Shown here: positions 2,510-13,929 of the stretch, piece by piece
Numbering within the stretch: position 1 is the first letter of the stretch
How the letters are laid out: every line of letters begins with the position of its first letter
NCBI RefSeq assembly: GCF_000383235.1
Contig: NZ_KB910941.1
Span: forward strand, 1 to 64,000
Direction of reading: 5' to 3'
DNA from: Bacillus sp. 123MFChir2
GTDB taxonomy: Bacteria; Bacillota; Bacilli; Bacillales; Bacillaceae_G
DNA: 64,000 nucleotides
The notes under the pieces: model-generated
Told to the model about the DNA's origin: nothing
Seen by the model: the letters and a program-made list of their open reading frames with translations, nothing else
Databases searched by the model: none
Program-made: the position numbers and the translations under genes

Positions 2510-2550
2510 GTCGGGTAAGTCGGAGTCCTCACGGACCCTTTCTCCCCTCA

Positions 2551-2584
2551 GAACCGGACTTGTCCGTTTCCAAACATCCGGCTC
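2551..2584 (-). ncRNA. Group II intron domain V
   Basis: On the minus strand the 34-nt element begins GAGCCGGATGTTTGGAAAC and closes with AAGTCCGGTTC. This is the classic domain V hairpin with the catalytic AGC triad in the first strand, a GAAA-type tetraloop and an asymmetric bulge. Domain VI follows between it and the intron end at 2510. Confidence 0.93.
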
Positions 2585-2612
2585 AAGCCTTCTTTTTATC
2601 CAAAACAGCTGG

Positions 2613-4409
2613 TCACTCTTCATCAATCACGTGCCATTCTATTAACTGAATTCTCTCTTGAGGAGTTAATGAGATACGTTTGTTCAATTTCTTGTAAATA
2701 TACGCTCTCTCTCGAAAGATAGGATGTTTTTGATGATATTGGATGTGACATGGTATATGTAGAAGCTGGAGATTACTATATTCATTTGTTCCCCCATAAG
2801 CCTTAGGAACTTTATGATGTACTTCTAATGCTTCTCCGTTTTGTAGAGCCTCTTCACAGATTGGACAGATATATTTCTGTTTCTTTGCGATTTTAATTCG
2901 AGCTAGCGTATTATTGTTATCGAAATCTATTCTATCACGTTTGATAAAGTAATGAGTGAGTTCAGGATTATCGGGACTGTTCTTATACTTCACCCCAATG
3001 TGTCGGATAATCGGAGTCCAAATCATTTTAAAAATTTGATATTTTGTCTTTGGACAAGTAAGAACCCATTTATCATGACCACCATGATGAGGTTTTCGAA
3101 AATATCGTTTCATAATCCATTTCCAGCTTTTCTTTGGATGTAGCCTTTTTACATGACGTACAATATTCCCCCATATAAAATAATCCATTGATGAAAATAC
3201 CCTTTTTGATACTACATGCATCCAGTAATACGCGTATCCCCTAATAATTGGATTTAATTCAGCAAGTAGTGTTTGAACAGGTTTTCCTTTTAATTTTTGA
3301 AAGGTAGTTTTCATCTTCTTCTTGGCTTTTTGTATGCTTTCTTTAGAGGGTTTAATTAACAATTTATTTTTGTCTTGTTTATATTGCTTAATATGAAACC
3401 CTAGGAAACGGAACCCCTCCGTAATGTGAGTGACATGAGTCTTATCTGTCGCTAATGTAATACCTCGTCTCTCAAGATAAGGTGTTAGCTCTTGATAAAG
3501 GGATTCGGCTTCCTCTTTCGTTTGACAAGCAACGATAAAATCATCTGCATAACGAATCATAGCCTTTGTACATTTGATATTTGTATGATAGGTAATACCT
3601 TGCCTTTTGGTATTACTCCTACTGTAGCTGATTCCCAGCTCCTTCTCCATACCATGTAGGGCGATGTTAGCTAATAGTGGTGAAATGATTCCTCCTTGAG
3701 GTGAACCCACTGTAGTTGGGTGGAAAGCCTGATTATCTATATATCCAGATTGTAACCATCTCTTGATAATCCTTTTAGCTGGAAACTTATCAGTTTTCTC
3801 TAAGATATGCTCATGACTTAGATTATCAAAACATCCGGTGAAATCCCCTTCGAATATCCAAACCTTCTTGCTTTTAGAGTTTAGTTTATTAAAAATATTC
3901 GCTATGGCGTCATGCGCACTACGCTTAGGGCGAAATCCATATGAAATAGGTTCGAATTCTGCCTCCCATTCCGGTTCTAGTGCATTTTTGGCTATGTTTT
4001 GCCACACTCTATCCTTGATTGTTGGAATGCCCAGTGAGCGTAATTTTCCATTCTGTTTTGGAATATATACACGTTTCACAGCTTTTGGGAGATGCAATTG
4101 GATGCTTTGATACATCATTTGGTGAAACAGTTTCACTCTAGATTTTGGTGTTAATACCCGTTCTCCGTCGATACCCGCAGTTCGTTTCCCTCGATTTACT
4201 TGTGTGACTCTTTTGATCGATAACAATAGGTTTGCTCTACTTCGAAGCATGAGCCTTTGTAACTTTCTCACTTTTCTTCTTTGATTTTGCTGTTTGGCAC
4301 GAAAAATTCGTTGTCGTAACTTCCTTACATACCTCTCAATTTCTCCCCAATGGATTGTAAACCAATCTGTAAGTGAAGGAATAGCCGACGCCTTGTGAGC
4401 TGTATCCAT
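2613..4409 (-). CDS. ltrA: Group II intron reverse transcriptase/maturase with HNH endonuclease (LtrA-like)
   Basis: Multifunctional intron-encoded protein that assists splicing, nicks the target DNA strand and copies the intron by target-primed reverse transcription. Reading from the longest frame (4484), the RT domain runs from about residue 100 to 400 with RYADDFIVA at 311-319 (catalytic YADD), preceded by SYGFRPKRSAHDA and SPQGGIISPLLANI. A maturase X region follows, and the C-terminus has an HNH domain with CPICEEAL, EVHHKVPKAYGG and a C..H pair. I chose the ATG at 4409 because AAGGAAGG lies 8 bases upstream; the longer frame to 4484 has no such site. This gives 598 residues, a normal length. 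No disruption is visible, so the element may still be mobile. Confidence 0.92.
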   Translation of the reverse strand: MDTAHKASAIPSLTDWFTIHWGEIERYVRKLRQRIFRAKQQNQRRKVRKLQRLMLRSRANLLLSIKRVTQVNRGKRTAGIDGERVLTPKSRVKLFHQMMYQSIQLHLPKAVKRVYIPKQNGKLRSLGIPTIKDRVWQNIAKNALEPEWEAEFEPISYGFRPKRSAHDAIANIFNKLNSKSKKVWIFEGDFTGCFDNLSHEHILEKTDKFPAKRIIKRWLQSGYIDNQAFHPTTVGSPQGGIISPLLANIALHGMEKELGISYSRSNTKRQGITYHTNIKCTKAMIRYADDFIVACQTKEEAESLYQELTPYLERRGITLATDKTHVTHITEGFRFLGFHIKQYKQDKNKLLIKPSKESIQKAKKKMKTTFQKLKGKPVQTLLAELNPIIRGYAYYWMHVVSKRVFSSMDYFIWGNIVRHVKRLHPKKSWKWIMKRYFRKPHHGGHDKWVLTCPKTKYQIFKMIWTPIIRHIGVKYKNSPDNPELTHYFIKRDRIDFDNNNTLARIKIAKKQKYICPICEEALQNGEALEVHHKVPKAYGGTNEYSNLQLLHIPCHIQYHQKHPIFRERAYIYKKLNKRISLTPQERIQLIEWHVIDEE

Positions 4410-5007
4410 AACTAGATTCCTTCCTTTCGGCAGAAGTTTCTTTTCGCTTTTTTTTCGTGTTGAAGACCTGTTGGAAGTCTGCACCCTGTCGGGTTACATC
4501 ATTAGGTTATGCCCTGGATACTATTCGCACAGTTATGAATTCCTGTTGCCTTTCGACTTTGCGACCTTCGCTTTTTCCAACATCCCATACCCTCTATAAC
4601 GTCATTTTGCCTTACGGCATCCTTACTGTACAACGTACAGATTATATAGGGCTTACCAAGTTCCACTTCACATAGATACGATGAGGGAAGGTACCTTCTC
4701 TACTCCGGCGGACATGTAGGTTGTCTCTCAGTGACATCCAAAGTTCACTTTTCTAATCCGCATTTCCAATGTATCAACGTCTTTCATTGGATTCATCGTA
4801 ACGAAGCTTACAAAGATTCACTGTCGTTTACCTTTCTCATCTTTTCCTAGCACGGATTGAATGGACGTTCATCGCTTCCTTATGCGTTCCTTCATGCAAC
4901 CAACCCTGCCATTACTAGCAACGCTGTTTCGGGTGGAAATATTCTTGACAACTAGAATAGCGTATCCTTATGGATGCGCACTATTATGAAGCGACTTCTT
5001 GTCGCGC
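4410..5007 (-). ncRNA. Group II intron 5' ribozyme region (domains I to IV upstream part)
   Basis: About 600 bases between the intron 5' end and the maturase start hold no protein gene and are the expected place for domains I-III and the start of IV. Two short segments are candidates for exon-binding sites: TTGGAT (minus strand, 4741-4736) against the last six exon bases ATCCAG, and TTCAAT (minus strand, 4861-4856) against the exon segment ATTGAG just upstream. Each pairs over six bases with one terminal G-U. I did not fold the RNA. Confidence 0.75.
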
Positions 5008-5253
5008 CTGGATCTCAATATTCACTTGAGTTCCATTATCGAGTGTTGCTAGTAAATCTAAAATGGATAACTTATCATCTTCGTATGACTTATGAAGATG
5101 CGGGTCTTCCAATTGTAGAGATGTAATCGGTGCATCCAAAGATTCCTCTAAAATGGCATTTAAGAACCCTGTTAAAATCTCTTCATTTCCTTTGGTTCCA
5201 AATAACTGTTTAAAAGCAAAATCGATTCGTAAATTTACTAATTGGTTGGACAT
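5008..5253 (-). pseudogene. Rpn/PD-(D/E)XK nuclease copy 1, 5' exon
   Basis: Eighty-two codons from MSNQLVNLRIDFAFKQLFG to NIEIQ, almost identical to the start of the intact copy at 6119-7021. The segment carries the conserved acidic residues of the Rpn nuclease core (the LSILDLL Asp and the E-x-Q of IEIQ). The group II intron begins exactly after the Gln codon, and the exon length is a whole number of codons, so splicing would restore the frame. The start is chosen by alignment with copy 2 and a GGGAGAG ribosome site. Confidence 0.85.
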
Positions 5254-5641
5254 GGGTTTTCTCTCCCTGACGATCATTTCTTTTTATTTTATAAGATAAT
5301 TCCTTACATATGCAAATACTACTATTGTGAGTCTACCTTATATTCATGGCTAAGAAGTATTGTTTCAGAAATTACGAGCAAAGGTACTTCTTCGCTAATT
5401 ATTTTATCAACAATGAATATAGCTGCTATGTTCAACCAGTAATAACATTAAGGGTATATGATGGAGGACTCAACCAGTACAACCGCCACAGTACACTCAT
5501 GTCAGCATATAAAAATGTGAAAGATGAGAAGTTTCGCTATTATATTTTAAAACAAAAAGCTGATGTGTTTCATGCGATGAAGAGCTTTTTCCGTGAAGAA
5601 TCGAATGAGAAGATGGCCTGAACCCCTAAGTGTAGGGGTTT
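5254..5641 (+). repeat. Rpn module, copy A flank (direct repeat of 7022-7436)
   Basis: The ~390 bases upstream of the Rpn start in copy A are closely similar to the equivalent bases upstream of copy B, including the Rpn leader, a shared reading frame and the terminator AACCCCTA/TAGGGGTT. With the Rpn genes the duplicated unit is at least 1.2 kb. The copies differ by scattered substitutions and small indels (for example 4 bases missing in copy B near 7277), so the duplication is not very recent. Confidence 0.85.
5499..5621 (+). CDS. Small conserved ORF next to Rpn copy 1 (possible gene tail)
   Basis: Forty residues starting [18 protein letters not shown] and ending EESNEKMA. The same frame with only silent or no changes is kept at 7296-7418 beside the second Rpn gene, and each is followed by a terminator, so the reading frame appears to be under or to have recently been under selection. 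In copy A the frame stays open upstream to about 5346, in copy B it is broken there by a 4-base deletion. No ribosome site is close to the ATG. It may be a small protein or the 3' remnant of a longer gene that was carried along with the Rpn unit. I do not recognise a family. Confidence 0.4.
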
Positions 5642-5645
5642 TTTG
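5621..5645 (+). terminator. Rho-independent terminator after small ORF copy A
   Basis: Stem AACCCCTA/TAGGGGTT with a 4-base loop followed by a T run; it overlaps the last base of the stop codon at 5621. Confidence 0.8.
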
Positions 5646-6066
5646 TCGTGGTAATATATAGGGAAATCAGTTAATTAACTTGCAGGAAATAAGTACTATT
5701 ATATACCACTCTACCCTAATCACCGAGTTTGATACCCTTGGGAAAGAGCTTGAATCTTAAGAATACAGGGTTCGTCTTTGTTTATTATTATGGACGGTAA
5801 TTTGGAGAAATAAACGTGTTCGGTGATTGGGATGAAGATGGTTTGTTTGTATAGTTAGATGGAGGGATAAGAAGATAAATAAGCAACAAAGTAAAAAATT
5901 TATCCCTAAAATGAAAGGATACGTTATTCTGTCTGAGTCTTCACAGGCATGATATGATAGGTTTCCCGATTCCTCACGTAAGTCTTTTTATTCAATGTAG
6001 AGTATAAAAATATAGGTTGCAGGTGGATTTTTAAGGACTATATGGCTGAGAGTTCAGTGACTATAT
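5646..6066. other. Gene-free spacer between the two Rpn modules
   Basis: About 420 AT-rich bases without a supported reading frame, known repeat or clear promoter. It separates the terminator of copy A from the terminator of Rpn copy 2. Confidence 0.5.
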
Positions 6067-6117
6067 ACACATAATAAAAAGCTTTGCGGACTTTCGCAAA
6101 GCCTTTTTATTATGTGT
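6067..6117 (-). terminator. Terminator of Rpn copy 2
   Basis: Long near-perfect inverted repeat with arms ACACATAATAAAAAG and a GC-rich core GCTTTGCG, loop about 6 bases, two bases from the Rpn stop. T runs on both strands make it potentially bidirectional. Confidence 0.85.
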
Positions 6118-6118
6118 A

Positions 6119-7021
6119 TTACAATAGTAATTTTCGTATTTCTTCTGTACTTAGATCAGTGAATTTTGCAATGTCTTCTAACGGCATACCATTTTTATGC
6201 ATACCACGGATTAATTGCATTTTTCCTTGTTCAATTCCTTTTTCTAGCCCTTTTTCTAGTCCCTCTTCTAATCCCTCTTCTCGTGCATGAGCTATTTTAG
6301 CTTGCTCATCTAGAAGTATTTTCTCACGAGCTTCATAAGCTGTTCGGAAAGAAGAATCATGACTCATATTTTCCCATTTATTCATGGCCTTTTGTAAAAT
6401 TGGATCTTGGTTCATCGCAATCTCCTCCAATACTTGGGTTAAATGTTCATCTTCGTGAGCCGGCAACAGTAACATCCAACGGACAAATGTATTTTCCCAT
6501 GGATTTACTTTTTCTTCACGCCATTGTTTCACTAAGTTTGGAATCTCTACAAAATGGATTTCGATATCGTCACTTAATACTTGTTGTGTTTTTGTATTCC
6601 ATAATTGGCCAATAGTGTGAAATGAATCGTCATCAGCAAATAATAAAAAATCTAATAAGTTAATGGTGATTGTTTTCCGAAGTGAACGATAGGGCATCCC
6701 TTCTTGCATTTGAGATGTGTAGAGCTTACTCCAATAATATAAAGATCGTTTTATCATATCATGTGTATTTCGGAGCTGAATTTCTATATTCACTTGTGTT
6801 CCGTTGTCAAGTGTTGCTAGTAAATCTAAAATGGATAACTTATCATCTTGGTACGATTTATGAAGATGCGGGTCTTCCAATTGTAGAGATGTAATCGGGG
6901 CATCCAAAGATTCCTCTAAAATGGCATTTAAGAACCCTGTTAAAATTTCTTCATTTCCTTTGGTTCCAAATAACTGTTTAAAAGCAAAATCGATTCGTAA
7001 ATTTACTAATTGGTTGGACAT
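6119..7021 (-). CDS. Rpn family recombination-promoting nuclease / putative transposase (PD-(D/E)XK), intact
   Basis: A 300-residue protein of the Rpn/TIGR01784-type group, members of which are DNA endonucleases linked to RecA-independent recombination; some are annotated as putative transposases. The N-terminal half has RIDFAFKQLFGTKGNEEIL, the acidic ILDLLATLDNGTQ and the IEIQ motif that together form the PD-(D/E)XK core. The C-terminus has an E/K-rich segment of repeated EGLEKG units and then a helical tail (GMPLEDIAKFTDLSTEEIRK) characteristic of the family. A GGGAGAGG site precedes the ATG. It is the uninterrupted paralogue of the intron-split copy at 2261-5253. Substrate and biological role here are unknown. 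Confidence 0.88.
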   Translation of the reverse strand: MSNQLVNLRIDFAFKQLFGTKGNEEILTGFLNAILEESLDAPITSLQLEDPHLHKSYQDDKLSILDLLATLDNGTQVNIEIQLRNTHDMIKRSLYYWSKLYTSQMQEGMPYRSLRKTITINLLDFLLFADDDSFHTIGQLWNTKTQQVLSDDIEIHFVEIPNLVKQWREEKVNPWENTFVRWMLLLPAHEDEHLTQVLEEIAMNQDPILQKAMNKWENMSHDSSFRTAYEAREKILLDEQAKIAHAREEGLEEGLEKGLEKGIEQGKMQLIRGMHKNGMPLEDIAKFTDLSTEEIRKLLL

Positions 7022-7436
7022 GGGTTTTCCTCTCCCTGTCTGTCATTTCTTTCTTTATTTTATAAGATAATTCCTTACCTATGCAAATACTATTGTTGTG
7101 AGCCTAATTCAGTTTATAAAGTGAATGCAATTGCTATCTTATATTCATATTTAAGAAGTATGGTTTCAGAAATTACGAGAAAAGGAACTTCTTCTTCAAT
7201 TATTTTCCCAACAATGAATATAGATGCTATGTTCAACCAGTAACAACATTAAGGGTATATGATGGAGGACTCAACCCAACCGCCACAGTACACTCATGTC
7301 AGCATATAAAAACGTAAAAGATGAGAAGTTTCGTTATTATATTTTAAAACAAAAAGCTGACGTGTTTCATGCGATGAAGAGCTTTTTCCGTGAAGAATCG
7401 AATGAGAAGATGGCTTGAACCCCTAAGTATGGGGGG
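7022..7436 (+). repeat. Rpn module, copy B flank
   Basis: Second copy of the upstream segment described at 5254-5641, in the same orientation relative to its Rpn gene, ending in the AACCCC/GGGGTT terminator. Confidence 0.85.
7296..7418 (+). CDS. Small conserved ORF next to Rpn copy 2 (possible gene tail)
   Basis: Same 40-residue frame as at 5499-5621; the few base differences between the copies (such as GTG/GTA and GAT/GAC third positions) leave the protein unchanged. Upstream, the longer frame seen in copy A is disrupted by a 4-base deletion, so if the protein is made here it must start at or near this ATG. Divergent from the Rpn gene. Unknown function; may be a remnant. Confidence 0.4.
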
Positions 7437-9392: not shown

Positions 9393-9590
9393 GCTTTCCC
9401 TCCTATGTGATTAAGATATTCAGTTCACATGAGAAAGGATTATTTGTTTGTCCATACATGCATCAAAATCCACTGTCTATTTTCTTCATTAGTGGGATAT
9501 TGTAAGAGAAATAGCTTCCAATATATACATGACTTTACTTTTTGTGTAAAATCTTGTATTATATAAATATACCATATATTAGTTGATTTT

Positions 9591-9632
9591 CAGGAGGAGG
9601 CTGTCACTATAGCTTTCTCCTGTTCTTTTTTT
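9591..9632 (+). terminator. Terminator-like hairpin in the leader of the flotillin operon
   Basis: CAGGAG and CTCCTG arms about 20 bases apart are followed by TTCTTTTTTT. A promoter-like TATTATATAA lies about 30 bases upstream, so a short transcript could end here. The stem is only 6 bp, so the call is tentative. Confidence 0.4.
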
Positions 9633-9659
9633 GGGAGTCTGTAATAAGACTCCTTTTTC
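9633..9659 (+). terminator. Second terminator hairpin upstream of yuaF
   Basis: GGAGTCT/AGACTCC stem, 6-base loop, followed by TTTTT. With the preceding hairpin it forms a tandem pair in the 364-base gene-free stretch 9393-9756. No other feature was found in that stretch apart from the yuaF ribosome site GAAAGGAG. Confidence 0.65.
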
Positions 9660-9756
9660 AAAAGTTTAAATGACTGAAATTTAAGACATCTAAAAGGGGG
9701 AGGGAATACATATTAAATATAACAAGTTTCACTTATGTTGAAAGGAGTGAAGCAGT

Positions 9757-10299
9757 ATGTTATTTAACGTTCCAATTGAAACCATTTATTTATATGGACT
9801 TGTTATAACTGGAGCTATTGCCATTCTTTATTTGCTTTTCGGTGATATTTTAGAATCTCTTTTTAGTATATCAAGCGGAGCTACTTCGCCTTTTACACTC
9901 TTATTTAGCTTTCTGGCAATGCTATGTGGATTTGGTTACATATTAGAATATATATTTCCTTGGAGTAGTGTTGCTATTTTTGTTATTTCATTTTTCCTCG
10001 CACTTGTTGGTGTAATTACAATGAAAATGCTAGTTTTGGCGCCAATTTCTAAAGCGGAGCAAAATACAATGCACCGTATGGAAGAGTTTATTGGCTGCAA
10101 AGGAGAAGTGATTATTACGATTCCGAAAGAAGGGCTAGGAGAGGTTTTGTTAGCTTCTCAATTTGGTAGCAATGCGATGCCAGCTAAAACGATAGGAAAG
10201 AAAGATATTTTACAAGGATCAGATGTCATTGTTGAAGCAGTGGAAGATGGTGTTTTACATGTACAAAATTTAGCGGTTTCTTTAAAGAAACCGAAATGA
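9757..10299 (+). CDS. yuaF: NfeD-like membrane protein, flotillin partner (YuaF type)
   Basis: A 180-residue protein with three predicted membrane helices (about residues 10-32, 46-66 and 71-93) followed by a soluble C-terminal OB-fold region (GCKGEVIITIPKEGLGEV ... ILQGSDVIVEAVEDGVL). This is the short NfeD1b/YuaF architecture without the protease domain. In B. subtilis yuaF lies directly upstream of the flotillin gene and both act in membrane microdomain organisation. Here the flotillin gene is 1.5 kb further on because an IscB element lies between them. The ribosome site AAAGGAG is 8 bases upstream. Confidence 0.87.
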   Translation: MLFNVPIETIYLYGLVITGAIAILYLLFGDILESLFSISSGATSPFTLLFSFLAMLCGFGYILEYIFPWSSVAIFVISFFLALVGVITMKMLVLAPISKAEQNTMHRMEEFIGCKGEVIITIPKEGLGEVLLASQFGSNAMPAKTIGKKDILQGSDVIVEAVEDGVLHVQNLAVSLKKPK

Positions 10300-10310
10300 T
10301 AAGGACTAAA

Positions 10311-10510
10311 TCAATAGTAGTCATTTTTATATAAAAAAGTATACAAACGTGGGCAAATATGCTCGTATACTTACTATTGATTCGGTTTCAAGCCTAAGTG
10401 AGTGCGTTTTGACGAAAGTTAAATTGCATGATGAACTACGATTGATGAGTAAGTTGAAGACTTACCCTCGGATACACGCTTTAGTCCGTTGCTCTAAGAG
10501 TGTGGAAGGA
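10311..10510 (+). ncRNA. Candidate omega-RNA scaffold upstream of iscB
   Basis: About 200 bases without a gene directly before iscB contain nested inverted repeats. An outer stem pairs TCAATAGTA (10311-10319) with TACTATTGA (10372-10380), and an inner stem pairs AAGTATAC (10337-10344) with GTATACTT (10365-10372). Further on there is GTAAGT/ACTTAC near 10450-10471 and an ACACGCTTTAG/CTAAGAGTGT stem ending at about 10503, next to the iscB start. Known omega-RNAs are encoded immediately upstream of iscB, are about 200 nt and carry their guide at the 5' end. Position, size and structure fit; homology to a known omega-RNA was not tested. Confidence 0.65.
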
Positions 10511-10523
10511 TGACTGGTCAGAG

Positions 10524-11756
10524 ATGACTAAAAATAAAAACAAAGAATATTGTTTTGTATTGGATGTAGAAGGAGGAAAATTAGCTCCTACAAGTGTCAA
10601 CAATGGATGGTACTTAATTAGGAAGAAAAGAGCAAAACTTGTTGCAAAATACCCAATGGTAATTCAACTTCATAAGTCAGTGGAAGATGTAGATTATAAA
10701 ATTAGGTTGGGGATAGACGATGGTAGTTTACATGTTGGGGTTGGGTTAGTACAAGAATGTAAAACAAAAAACAAACCAATCTTTAAAGCTACTATTGAAC
10801 ATCGAAAAGATGTATCAAAGCTAATGGAGCAAAGAAGAGGATATAGACGATACAAAAGAAATCACAAACGGTATCGTCAAGCAAAATTTGGTAATCGTGC
10901 AAGTAGTAGAAGAGAAGGAAGAATCGCACCTAGTATACTTCAAAAGAGACAAACGATTATTAGGTTTGTAAATAAGATTTCAAAATGGATAGACATTGCA
11001 AGTATTCACTTAGAAGATGTTGCGATAGACATACGAGCATTGACTGATGACAAGAAGTTATACAACTGGCAATGTCAAAAATCCAATCGGCTAGATGAAA
11101 ACATGAGAAAGGCTGTAATTATACGAGACAAATATGAATGTATGGAATGCAGAAAATCAAACTGTATGTTAGAAGTACATCATATTGTCCCTAGGAGGTT
11201 AAGAGGCTCTAATACATTAGATAACCTGATTACACTGTGTAGTAAATGTCACCAAAAGACAGAAGGTAAAGAAGAAAAGTTTGTTGATAAGTATCAAAAA
11301 CTGATTAACGGAAAGAGTTTACGGCTAGACTTTGCTCAACACGTTATGCAAGGTAAAAACTGGTTACAACAACACTTATCTCAGTATGGTACTTTGCTTT
11401 TAACAAGTGGTGGAGATACTGCAAATAGGAGAATAGATTGGAGTATTGAAAAGGCACATTCTAATGACGCTTTAGTTATTTGTGGGTTAGAGATCCATGA
11501 TACAAACATAAAAGACTGGGTCATTAAACCAATCAGAAAGAAAACGAAAGCGATACATTCTGAAACTTATGGGTTTAAACATAGAGATATTGTACAATAC
11601 ACAGACACCAAAAAGGTAACTCATGTTGGCTATATTTCTGCAATGTACCCAGATAAGTTACAAATTAATATCCAAACAAAAGAGAAACATCTAAAAAGAG
11701 TAAATGCAAGAAAAAGTGTACTAAAGTGGAGATTTAGAGGGTTGTATTTCCTATGA
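10524..11756 (+). CDS. iscB: IscB-type RNA-guided endonuclease (RuvC/HNH)
   Basis: Ancestor-type relative of Cas9 that cuts DNA under guidance of an omega-RNA. Numbering from a GTG at 10500, the protein shows a degenerate PLMP-type N-terminus (KLAPTSVNNGWYLI then RAKLVAKYPMVIQL, 27-57), RuvC-I RLGIDDGSLHVGVGL with D73, an Arg-rich bridge helix QRRGYRRYKRNHKRYRQAK (111-129), RuvC-II IHLEDVAIDI with E172, an HNH domain with C..C, EVHHIVPRR (H227/H228) and DNLITLC (N242), and RuvC-III KAHSNDALVICG (H320, D323). All catalytic residues are present. I prefer the ATG at 10524, since the GTG at 10500 lies in a stem of the candidate omega-RNA and GGAAGG precedes the ATG. It has no adjacent transposase. 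Confidence 0.9.
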   Translation: MTKNKNKEYCFVLDVEGGKLAPTSVNNGWYLIRKKRAKLVAKYPMVIQLHKSVEDVDYKIRLGIDDGSLHVGVGLVQECKTKNKPIFKATIEHRKDVSKLMEQRRGYRRYKRNHKRYRQAKFGNRASSRREGRIAPSILQKRQTIIRFVNKISKWIDIASIHLEDVAIDIRALTDDKKLYNWQCQKSNRLDENMRKAVIIRDKYECMECRKSNCMLEVHHIVPRRLRGSNTLDNLITLCSKCHQKTEGKEEKFVDKYQKLINGKSLRLDFAQHVMQGKNWLQQHLSQYGTLLLTSGGDTANRRIDWSIEKAHSNDALVICGLEIHDTNIKDWVIKPIRKKTKAIHSETYGFKHRDIVQYTDTKKVTHVGYISAMYPDKLQINIQTKEKHLKRVNARKSVLKWRFRGLYFL

Positions 11757-11806
11757 ATGACCACACATGAATACTTTTATGTATATTTTTTGAAGGAGGA
11801 GTTACT

Positions 11807-13375
11807 ATGGTTCCATTAATTATTGGTGGTGTTTTATTAGCAATATTAGCGATTTTGATTTTAGTCTTTGTTACAAAATATCGTACTGTTGGTCCCGATG
11901 AAGCGTTAATTGTAACAGGAAGTGGACTCGGCAGCGGGAAAAATGTTGTGACAACAGATGATGGAAAGAAGATTAAAATTATTCGCGGCGGCGGTACGTT
12001 TGTTGTACCAATTATGCAACAAGCCGAACCTCTTAGTTTATTAAACTATAAGTTAGAAGTGGGAACACGCGATACATATACGAAGCAAGGTGTTCCAGTA
12101 ACAGTAAATGGTGTTTCGATAATTAAGGTAGGTTCTACAATTGAGGAAGTATCAACAGCAGCAGAGCAATATTTAGGAAAAGAAACAGAAGAACTGAAAG
12201 TAGAGGCGAAGGAAGTTTTAGAAGGACATTTACGAGCGATTCTTTCTTCGATGACAGTAGAAGATGCGTATAGTAACAGGGAGCAGTTTGCGCAGAAAGT
12301 ACACGAAGTTGCTTCCACTGATTTGAAGAAGATGGGGCTGCGCATCGTATCATTTACCATTAAAGAAATTAGTGATAAAAACGGATATTTAGATGCACTT
12401 GGTCAGCCGCAAATTGCAACGGTGAAGCGTGATGCGCAAATTGCAAACGCAGAACGAGAAAAAGAAGCACGGATTGAAAAGGCTCGTGCTGAAAAAGAAG
12501 CAAAAGAAGCAGAGTATCAGCGTGATGCGCAAATTGCGGAAGCAGAGAAACATAAAGAGTTAAAGGTGCAATCATATAAAAGGGAACAAGAACAAGCACG
12601 TGCTGATGCTGATCTTTCCTATGAATTACAGCAAGCGAAGGCTCAGCAAGGTGTAACAGAAGAGCAAATGCGAGTGAAAATTATTGAGCGTGAAAAACAA
12701 ATTGAATTAGAAGAAAAAGAAATTGCTCGTCGTGAAAAGCAATACGATGCAGAAGTGAAGAAAAAAGCAGATGCTGATCGTTATGCAGTTGAGCAAGCGG
12801 CGGAGGCAGAAAAAGTGCAACAAATGAAAAAAGCAGATGCCCAGCAATATAAAATTGAAGCAGAAGCAAAAGCGCGTGCAGAAGAAGTACGAGTAGAAGG
12901 TTTAGCGAAAGCCGAAATTGAAAAGGCACAAGGGCAAGCAAAAGCAGAAGTACAAAAAGCGCAAGGTACAGCAGAGGCGGATGTTATTAAATTGAAAGGT
13001 CTTGCGGAAGCGGAAGCAAAACAAAAAATTGCTGAGGCATTTGAATTATACGGCCAAGCGGCAATTATGGATATGGTATTAAAAATGTTACCAAGCTATG
13101 CAAAAGAGATTGCAAGCCCGCTTAGTAATATCGATAAAATTACTGTTGTTGATACTGGCGGCGGTGGAAAAAACAGCGGTGCTGGTAAAGTTGCCGGCTA
13201 TGCGACTGATTTAATGGCAACGATGCAAGAAACTTTGAAGGCTTCTTCGGGAATTGATTTAAAAGAGTTGTTAGAAAGTTTTGCGGGGAAAGGTGCAATG
13301 CAGCAGAGCGGAGAGATAAAGGCTGCTATTCCGAGTCCGGAATGGAAAAATCTGGAAAATAATGAAACCCTATAG
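11807..13375 (+). CDS. floT: Flotillin (SPFH domain), FloT/YuaG
   Basis: A 522-residue flotillin with an N-terminal hydrophobic segment (residues 4-24, LIIGGVLLAILAILILVFV), an SPFH/band-7 domain to about residue 200, and a long coiled-coil region rich in repeated E/A/K motifs to about 420. The C-terminus carries the oligomerisation segment AFELYGQAAIMDMVLKMLPS. Flotillins organise membrane microdomains and affect signalling and secretion in Bacillus. GAAGGAGGAG precedes the ATG by 6 bases. It is normally driven from upstream of yuaF; the inserted IscB unit may reduce read-through unless it contributes its own promoter. Confidence 0.93.
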   Translation: MVPLIIGGVLLAILAILILVFVTKYRTVGPDEALIVTGSGLGSGKNVVTTDDGKKIKIIRGGGTFVVPIMQQAEPLSLLNYKLEVGTRDTYTKQGVPVTVNGVSIIKVGSTIEEVSTAAEQYLGKETEELKVEAKEVLEGHLRAILSSMTVEDAYSNREQFAQKVHEVASTDLKKMGLRIVSFTIKEISDKNGYLDALGQPQIATVKRDAQIANAEREKEARIEKARAEKEAKEAEYQRDAQIAEAEKHKELKVQSYKREQEQARADADLSYELQQAKAQQGVTEEQMRVKIIEREKQIELEEKEIARREKQYDAEVKKKADADRYAVEQAAEAEKVQQMKKADAQQYKIEAEAKARAEEVRVEGLAKAEIEKAQGQAKAEVQKAQGTAEADVIKLKGLAEAEAKQKIAEAFELYGQAAIMDMVLKMLPSYAKEIASPLSNIDKITVVDTGGGGKNSGAGKVAGYATDLMATMQETLKASSGIDLKELLESFAGKGAMQQSGEIKAAIPSPEWKNLENNETL

Positions 13376-13440
13376 GGATTTTTTGTAACTATTTAAAAGG
13401 AATTCCTGGGAATCGCTTTTATTTCATATTAGATAGAGGA

Positions 13441-13478
13441 GAACACATATTATTCATATATAATATGTGTTCTTTTTT
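13441..13478 (+). terminator. Terminator downstream of floT
   Basis: GAACACATATTA and its complement form a strong stem followed by TTTTTT. A weaker CCC-TATA-GGG hairpin with a T run overlaps the floT stop at 13366-13384. Confidence 0.85.
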
Positions 13479-13674
13479 GTTTTTAAGCTTTTTATTGGCA
13501 AATGGGCAAGTAGCCTATCTTCAAAATTACAAGGTATGGCAGCAATTTGTATATTGAAAAATTAAAATAGATATATGTAAATAAAAGAATTTTTAAAATA
13601 TGAGTTGATTTTCATAACAATGTTAGAATAGGTGAGAAATATAACACTGAAATGTAATGAGGAGAAAAGTTTAG

Positions 13675-13929
13675 ATGAAAGATGTAATTGAAAATGTTTA
13701 TAGCCCATGCAATGGAGTGATTGAAGAAATACTTATTCAACAATCGTCTTACGTATATGAGTGGGAAAAATTATTTGTTATTAAAAAAAGTGATGGAACA
13801 TTAGAAGAAGCCGCAGTTGGTTTTAGCGGTAATATATTAGCTGTCGAAGTAAAGTTAGGCCAGGAAGTAAATGAACAAACATTGTTGTGTAAATTAGAAG
13901 ACGATTGGTTGATTACTGGCTGTGAATAA
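13675..13929 (+). CDS. Small biotin/lipoyl-like domain protein without modifiable lysine
   Basis: An 84-residue protein that folds plausibly as a single biotinyl/lipoyl barrel: VYSPCNGVIEEILIQQSSYV resembles the first half and GFSGNILAVEVKLGQEV the second half of the hammerhead repeat. At the hairpin where carrier proteins have M-K-M or D-K-A the sequence is TLEEAAVG with no lysine, so covalent biotin or lipoate is unlikely. Similar orphan barrels occur in efflux adaptor proteins. GAGGAG precedes the ATG. It is monocistronic between repeats. Function unknown. Confidence 0.6.
   Translation: MKDVIENVYSPCNGVIEEILIQQSSYVYEWEKLFVIKKSDGTLEEAAVGFSGNILAVEVKLGQEVNEQTLLCKLEDDWLITGCE

Follow-up and report, generated by a model that had tools for sequence, protein, structure and literature searches.

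An IscB insertion with a shortened omega RNA upstream of floT, and its relatives at Shine-Dalgarno sequences

In Bacillus sp. 123MFChir2, a gene encoding an IscB nuclease lies directly in front of the flotillin gene floT, which raises the question of what such a gene is doing at this place. An earlier note on this DNA had described it as an intact RNA-guided nuclease that splits an operon, and that was either a recent insertion or a gene kept because it alters floT expression. We addressed this question in the window, that is the whole stretch of 64,000 nucleotides at the start of contig NZ_KB910941.1, to which all coordinates refer, and in relatives of the encoded protein. The reading that we hold to be likely is that the window copy is a stranded, guide-impaired element of the IscB/HEARO type that targets Shine-Dalgarno (SD) sequences, with a nuclease gene that is still open and with no TnpA nearby.

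The IscB gene and its neighbours in the window

The iscB reading frame is open on the + strand from an ATG at 10524 (10524..11756; 410 amino acids) or from a GTG at 10500 (418 amino acids), and the encoded protein carries the catalytic residues of both its RuvC and HNH domains. It scored 289.5 bits against the curated family model guided_IscB of NCBIfam (NF040563; cut-off 175), which identifies it as an IscB, and Pfam detected RRXRR and HNH domains in the same frame. In an alignment of six proteins (the one from the window and five relatives), D65, E164, H219/H220, N234, H312 and D315 were invariant. The family score and these invariant positions confirm the complete IscB, with RuvC and HNH residues, that had been described before; the residues then given as D73, E172, H320 and D323 are D65, E164, H312 and D315, numbered from the GTG instead of the ATG. 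The protein is 59% identical to that of L001, and it matched HfmIscB (PDB 9k2z) over residues 7-410 with a phmmer E value of 6e-152; OgeuIscB reached 93 bits only, split over two stretches.

Two open reading frames flank iscB on the same strand, as the earlier note had it. Downstream, floT (11807..13375) is open and was recognised by the NCBIfam model FloT with 780 bits. Upstream, an open frame at 9757..10299 was left unnamed by the family libraries (0 Pfam and 0 NCBIfam families) and resembles the gene that precedes floT in other bacilli (25-53% in tblastn); we take it to be NfeD/YuaF-like on this similarity. An NfeD-like gene was found directly upstream in 31 of 35 FloT loci of other bacilli, which had been taken for their top search scores and thus not at random, all of them outside the window's own group. 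In these 31 loci, the aligned end of the NfeD-like gene lay about 28-155 nt from floT in tblastn, with no room for an IscB gene. The pair is therefore normally adjacent, and IscB is, by this comparison of sequences, an insertion between the two genes. The earlier operon-splitting claim, which had been made dependent on yuaF being normally next to floT, held on this point. The closest FloT that was found (L041, from genome G671; 88.8%) has no detectable NfeD-like gene directly upstream of floT.

The ends of the insertion were located to within a few nucleotides by aligning it with relatives that were collected from genomes by protein search and from IMG/VR by alignment query. Homology to these relatives starts just past the upstream stop codon and ends at the floT SD, which delimits an element of 1489 bp at about 10305..11793 on the + strand, whose right end (11757..11793) was assigned by the same comparison. 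Both ends are uncertain by about 4 nt because the sequence AAGGA is repeated on the two sides, with a left copy at 10301..10305 and a right copy at 11793-11797, within the floT SD. The TGA stop of the NfeD-like gene is separated by 1 nt from the left AAGGA and by 5 nt from the element. At the left end, a hairpin can be drawn from the arm AATCAATAGTA (10309..10319, + strand) and its second arm TACTATTGATT (10372..10382, + strand), which form a perfect inverted repeat (11/11 nt); the hairpin at the right end is weak, as judged by eye. No Y1 TnpA was detected among the ten reading frames scanned between 596 and 20660, in line with the previous statement that no TnpA is nearby.

Does the insertion affect floT? 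The floT SD (AAGGAGGAG, 11793..11801 on the + strand), which includes the right AAGGA repeat, is complete, with a GGAGG core that ends 7 nt before the ATG. A search of the + strand of 10300-11806 gave no terminator-like site, and 14 promoter-like sites were counted in 9400-13700 versus 15.7 in shuffled sequences. With a complete SD, open flanking frames, no + strand terminator in the element and promoter-like sites at the level of shuffles, nothing shows that the inserted IscB regulates floT, and we abandoned the suggestion that it was kept because it alters floT expression.

Several other kinds of mobile genes are found within the 10 kb upstream of the IscB element: an ISL3-type transposase gene (596-1852), a group II intron on the - strand (2510-4484, in which RF00029 matches a domain at 2510-2586 and 2613-4484 encodes a maturase/reverse transcriptase with an HNH domain) and a PD-(D/E)XK (Rpn-like) gene (6119-7021). 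The region at about 5008-7041 also showed an 86.5% DNA match to a plasmid labelled Klebsiella grimontii (CP079755.1), in two pieces amounting to 4% of the query; this would be an odd host for such a gene, and the record is perhaps a mixed assembly.

Relatives of the window IscB and their insertion sites

Searches for relatives (49-62% identity) turned up 23 contigs in IMG/VR as well as staphylococcal phages and some chromosomes. Since these collections were searched by different methods, the following counts do not measure the relative abundance of the subfamily: 23 IMG/VR contigs at 55-61% identity by alignment query, at least nine Staphylococcus phage records at 52-55%, 11 of the 193 genomes that belong to the family of G002 (Neobacillus niacini; E values up to 1e-60), and, at E values up to 1e-70, one of 398 Bacilli-class and one of 341 Clostridia-class genomes, both of them seed genomes. 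Viral scans that used the IscB, NfeD-like or FloT sequence of the window singly found no relative. Among the plasmid matches listed (40 of 65), all were below 34% identity, and there was no DNA match to plasmids. In a tree of 40 IscB proteins, 26 of which came from IMG/VR or phage records, the window IscB was sister to L001, a Clostridia metagenome-assembled contig (support 99/96), and the next supported set comprised 18 rows, with four IMG/VR copies and the chromosomal ones. The end branch of the window protein is long (0.41), so its exact place in the tree is uncertain.

The position of the window element at an SD turned out to be common in this subfamily. We scored a site as positive when AGG or GGG stood at the right boundary of the element, followed after 2-16 nt by the start codon of a reading frame of at least 40 codons, with the boundary strings read by eye. 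This rule held at 30 of 38 distinct sites, including 10 of 14 chromosomal ones (the window, L001, L045, L043, L052, L003, L046 (=L049), L047, L002 and L044) and 20 of 24 in phages. The set of 38 leaves aside L051 and L138, in which the right flank is truncated, and the weak L140 (33%), and counts the pairs L046/L049, L120/L128 and L143/L144 once each. The rule failed at L050, L048, L053, L054, L124, L130, L136 and L143/L144; among these, L124 has an SD and an ATG that open a frame of only 25 codons and was counted as failing, and L136 has GGAGG before a start and fails on distance alone, its boundary AGG being one nt too far away. In L048 (genome G736), iscB carries an in-frame TGA, and the element lies in the leader of a serA-like gene, not at its SD.

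How often would such sites be expected elsewhere? Applied in identical form outside the elements, the same rule held for 325 of 3025 AGG/GGG motifs in 22 phage loci and for 194 of 1817 in the window (11%), or for 538/3025 and 317/1817, respectively, when the start was also allowed beyond the first quarter of its frame. A background for GG[AG]GG preceding a start was higher (41/109 in phage loci and 21/88 in the window), this control using a motif and distances unlike those of the hand count. Taking a background of 0.4, 30 of 38 sites would arise by chance with a probability of about 1e-6, a value that serves as a guide only, since the sites share element ancestry. On the other side, the element was immediately preceded by GG in 12 chromosomal copies and in 19 of the 20 phage copies with a left end recognisable by eye (L138 is outside these 20). 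Insertion at SD sites is thus a recurrent feature of the subfamily at the level of sequence. In gene-dense phages, most tolerated insertions lie near starts, so that selection against insertion inside genes, and not recognition, may explain part of this pattern. Among the papers listed by literature searches that covered few subscription papers, none was recognised as a report of IscB insertion at Shine-Dalgarno sequences.

The junctions were of two types. In type B elements, those of the Neobacillus family, the SD is split as GG^AGG, with a 2-nt ambiguity (AG). Type A elements, which include the window copy and most phage copies, have AAGG on both sides, so that the downstream SD stays whole; this AAGG pair may either stem from duplication of the target or belong to the element, with each copy attributable to flank or element.

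Natural element-free alleles were available for nine sites other than nfeD-floT, and they read an SD or a purine run at the insertion point. For nfeD-floT itself, searches at class, order and family level gave relatives more distant than the B. cereus group, to which the earlier note assigned this DNA, and no empty allele from the window's own group. At the hemX-hemC site, six of eight genomes in the genus of G694 are element-free and read CTAGGAGG or TTAGGAGG, and the occupied L046 and L049 read CTAGG-element-AGG. In the genus of G003, relatives read AGGAGG, AAGGAGG, GGGAGG or G runs at six other sites; G runs, not AGGAGG, predominate among the empty relatives at natB and L050, and the comparisons at the L048 site were about 71% alike only. 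For L045, whose genus is represented by one genome, there was no empty allele. The two empty phage sites read AAAGGAG and AAGGGG. One of them, that of L142, is empty in seven staphylococcal phage records that represent five distinct phages, of which four were read: three of these carry CCTATAAAGGAG, followed 11 nt further on by an ATG, and in the fourth this SD is preceded by a short repeat. The other, that of L141, is empty in phages PSU4 and phiSA_BS1 (GACAGTAAGGGG), in a comparison where the downstream gene is alike for about two codons only.

The 20 nt to the left of these phage elements were also found in empty alleles, and the match was exact in four of the six that were read: 20/20 in both empty phages for L141, and 20/20 in two and 19/20 in two others for L142. 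One of these two 19/20 matches, that in phage L146, has no AGG after it.

Some junctions had features of their own. The right junction of L142 shows three extra nucleotides (AGG) compared to the empty allele, as if it had been joined through SD microhomology. In L143/L144 (Staphylococcus Silviavirus), where the element has an eroded left end, the RusA-like target gene seems to have had its start region duplicated: this region is found twice, in diverged form, once on each side of the IscB element; among the matches listed for this region (56 in total), seven phage records hold most of it and 23 cover 43% without the element.

A predicted guide and possible modes of movement

The 5' part of the RNA acts as the guide in IscB/HEARO systems, and the target-adjacent motif (TAM) of the related IsrB was assayed in the nucleotides downstream of the target (PMC9755519, PMC9581776); for OrufIscB, NTAAA/NWRRN motifs are reported, which like the SD are rich in purines (PMC13180657). 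By analogy with this 5' spacer (PMC9755519) and with the empty phage alleles, the predicted guide of the window element is 10281..10300 on the + strand, its left flank, which corresponds to the end of the upstream gene. The next best match to these 20 nt in the window is 15/20.

These observations suggest a model in which elements of the subfamily, carried by phages and prophage-like contigs as well as by some chromosomes, would insert into purine-rich SDs (AAGG[A/G]G or GG^AGG), oriented with the downstream gene. After landing, the omega RNA of the element would take the sequence to the left of it as its 5' guide, and the SD next to the same flank in an empty allele would act as the TAM. An active copy could thereby cut sister alleles without the insertion and be copied into them in the manner of a homing endonuclease, the cut allele being repaired from the element-bearing copy, in the way that one study describes for TnpB in plasmids (PMC11870625). 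At the window locus, the element would have entered the floT SD just past the upstream stop, with both genes unbroken and the SD complete afterwards, and a later loss of 86 nt from its omega RNA would have left a stranded copy with its nuclease frame still open. We infer the guide and TAM assignments, the cutting, the homing and the loss of activity in the window copy from these sequence patterns.

For the phage-borne branch as a whole, we tentatively propose that the SD may serve both as landing site and as TAM, which would allow a self-reprogramming, RNA-guided and TnpA-free homing via ribosome-binding sites, with the nfeD-floT copy as a stranded example. Nearly every gene carries an SD, so, if this reading is true, the elements could spread through the ribosome-binding sites of phages and hosts with coding sequences unbroken. 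If the SD is the target motif, this would also explain how an IscB without a transposase persists in gene-dense phage genomes, because an SD stands before most genes, coding sequences are spared and an SD can remain for the downstream start. The role of IscB for its element and movement without TnpA then become testable, because phage pairs that differ in carrying the element occur naturally and their empty members match the predicted guide.

It is possible, if rather doubtful, that the element is instead of the IS200/IS605 type and owes its movement to a Y1 TnpA acting in trans, the SD reflecting a TnpA motif together with purifying selection, and IscB merely preventing loss at excision. The left-end hairpin, the short conserved target at the junction and the classical link of IscB to IS200/IS605 (PMC9755519, PMC9581776) fit this explanation. 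It has to be set against the lack of a Y1 domain in the ten window frames scanned and against the surroundings of 25 phage loci, where one of 66 reading frames of 105-190 amino acids had an HxH motif, without a Pfam match. An SD target is common to this explanation and to the homing model. In phage Golestan101-M (L141), a TnpB gene (OrfB_IS605; 5152-6222) lies about 1.4 kb downstream of the IscB frame, beyond PhoH.

The shortened omega RNA and comparison with known systems

Returning to the stranded, guide-impaired element that we favour for the window, its key feature is a deletion in the omega RNA. The 5' domain is present at 10384..10499 on the + strand (covariance model 82.3 bits, E 2e-23). 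The place of the 3' domain (10491..10523, + strand) is short: from a conserved GCTCT to the iscB start region, 115-116 nt were counted in 12 of 12 chromosomal relatives versus 29 in the window, a deletion of 86 nt. In a wider set, the same segment measured 113-124 nt in 38 of 41 relatives, and the other three gave no value, L053 and L054 being cut off and L119 having its own deletion. This phage relative thus shows a second, different internal omega-RNA deletion upstream of iscB. A purine-rich, SD-like GGAAGGA still precedes iscB in the window after the deletion.

With its default filters, a covariance model of the 3' domain found nothing in the 64 kb of the window; run unfiltered, it reached a best local score of 6.6 bits, in which 5 nt stood in for 91 model positions. 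The HEARO model RF02033 (gathering score 83) had no match in 10200-11900 at E values up to 10 and, at its gathering score, none in 10 relatives; L144 (36.7 bits) and L120 (33.9 bits) gave sub-threshold matches over its whole length. RNAalifold predicted 72 pairs from 11 relatives, 28 of them with changes on both sides, counts that lean towards the predicted structure since it was derived from the same sequences. The 3' strands of a long-range helix (columns 159-173/275-287) and of a closing helix (104-113/291-300) fall in the segment that is missing from the window. A complete omega RNA directly upstream of iscB is thus absent in the window, where the 5' domain is present and the 3' domain lacks 86 nt, and the copy is therefore expected to be unable to form the usual ribonucleoprotein. 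Its guide RNA is probably non-functional and the copy probably stranded, so that "intact RNA-guided nuclease" stands for the protein and falls for the RNA, and the reading of the locus shifts from an operon-splitting regulator to a stranded insertion with a damaged guide RNA. That the iscB frame is open after the deletion fits a recent deletion, and also continued use of the protein.

The gap could be harmless if the window copy made a functional, shorter omega RNA, and a well-kept 5' domain, an intact protein and the partial RNA of L119 speak for this. We consider it improbable, since the segment keeps its length in 38 of 41 relatives, since its loss takes the second strand from each of two covarying long-range helices, and since sub-threshold HEARO matches like those of L144 and L120 are absent in the window.

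Domestication, in which the protein, with or without the truncated RNA, would have been recruited to control the nfeD-floT operon or some other host function, appears very improbable: the open frame with all its catalytic residues, the SD-like sequence kept before iscB after the deletion and the undisturbed surrounding genes and SD would suit it, but the window IscB keeps its catalytic residues while its guide RNA is damaged, the predicted guide has no other near match within the window (best 15/20), and no second genome with the nfeD-floT IscB allele was found, and thus no conservation that would argue for a host function. TldR proteins are TnpB-derived and were recruited as regulators, and the known TnpB-derived regulators have lost catalysis.

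How does the stranded, SD-targeting element that we favour compare with known systems? The guide of TnpB lies at the opposite end from that of IscB. In the gene drive by TnpB of IS200/IS605, the guide likewise records the insertion flank and element-free alleles are cut, but that TnpB is accompanied by a TnpA, of which none was seen at the window IscB, and targets plasmids (PMC11870625). The OMEGA nucleases OgeuIscB and OrufIscB have RuvC and HNH domains and a 5' omega RNA in common with the window IscB, and their NWRRN-like TAMs (PMC13180657) are purine-rich, as the SD is; insertion at SDs, which is seen in the window subfamily, is not described for them in the text covered. With HEARO RF02033, two relatives match over the whole length below threshold and a related phage record is annotated as HEARO, but the window has no match and the relatives stay below the gathering score of 83. 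By sequence, HfmIscB, whose structure is solved (PDB 9k2z), belongs to the same subfamily as the window IscB. Free-standing HNH homing endonucleases of phages sit between phage genes. The IscB elements resemble them in being intergenic and in being carried by some sister phages but not by others, and some phage copies are indeed annotated as HNH endonucleases. They would differ in being RNA-guided by their own flank, and would therefore be re-programmed at each new site.
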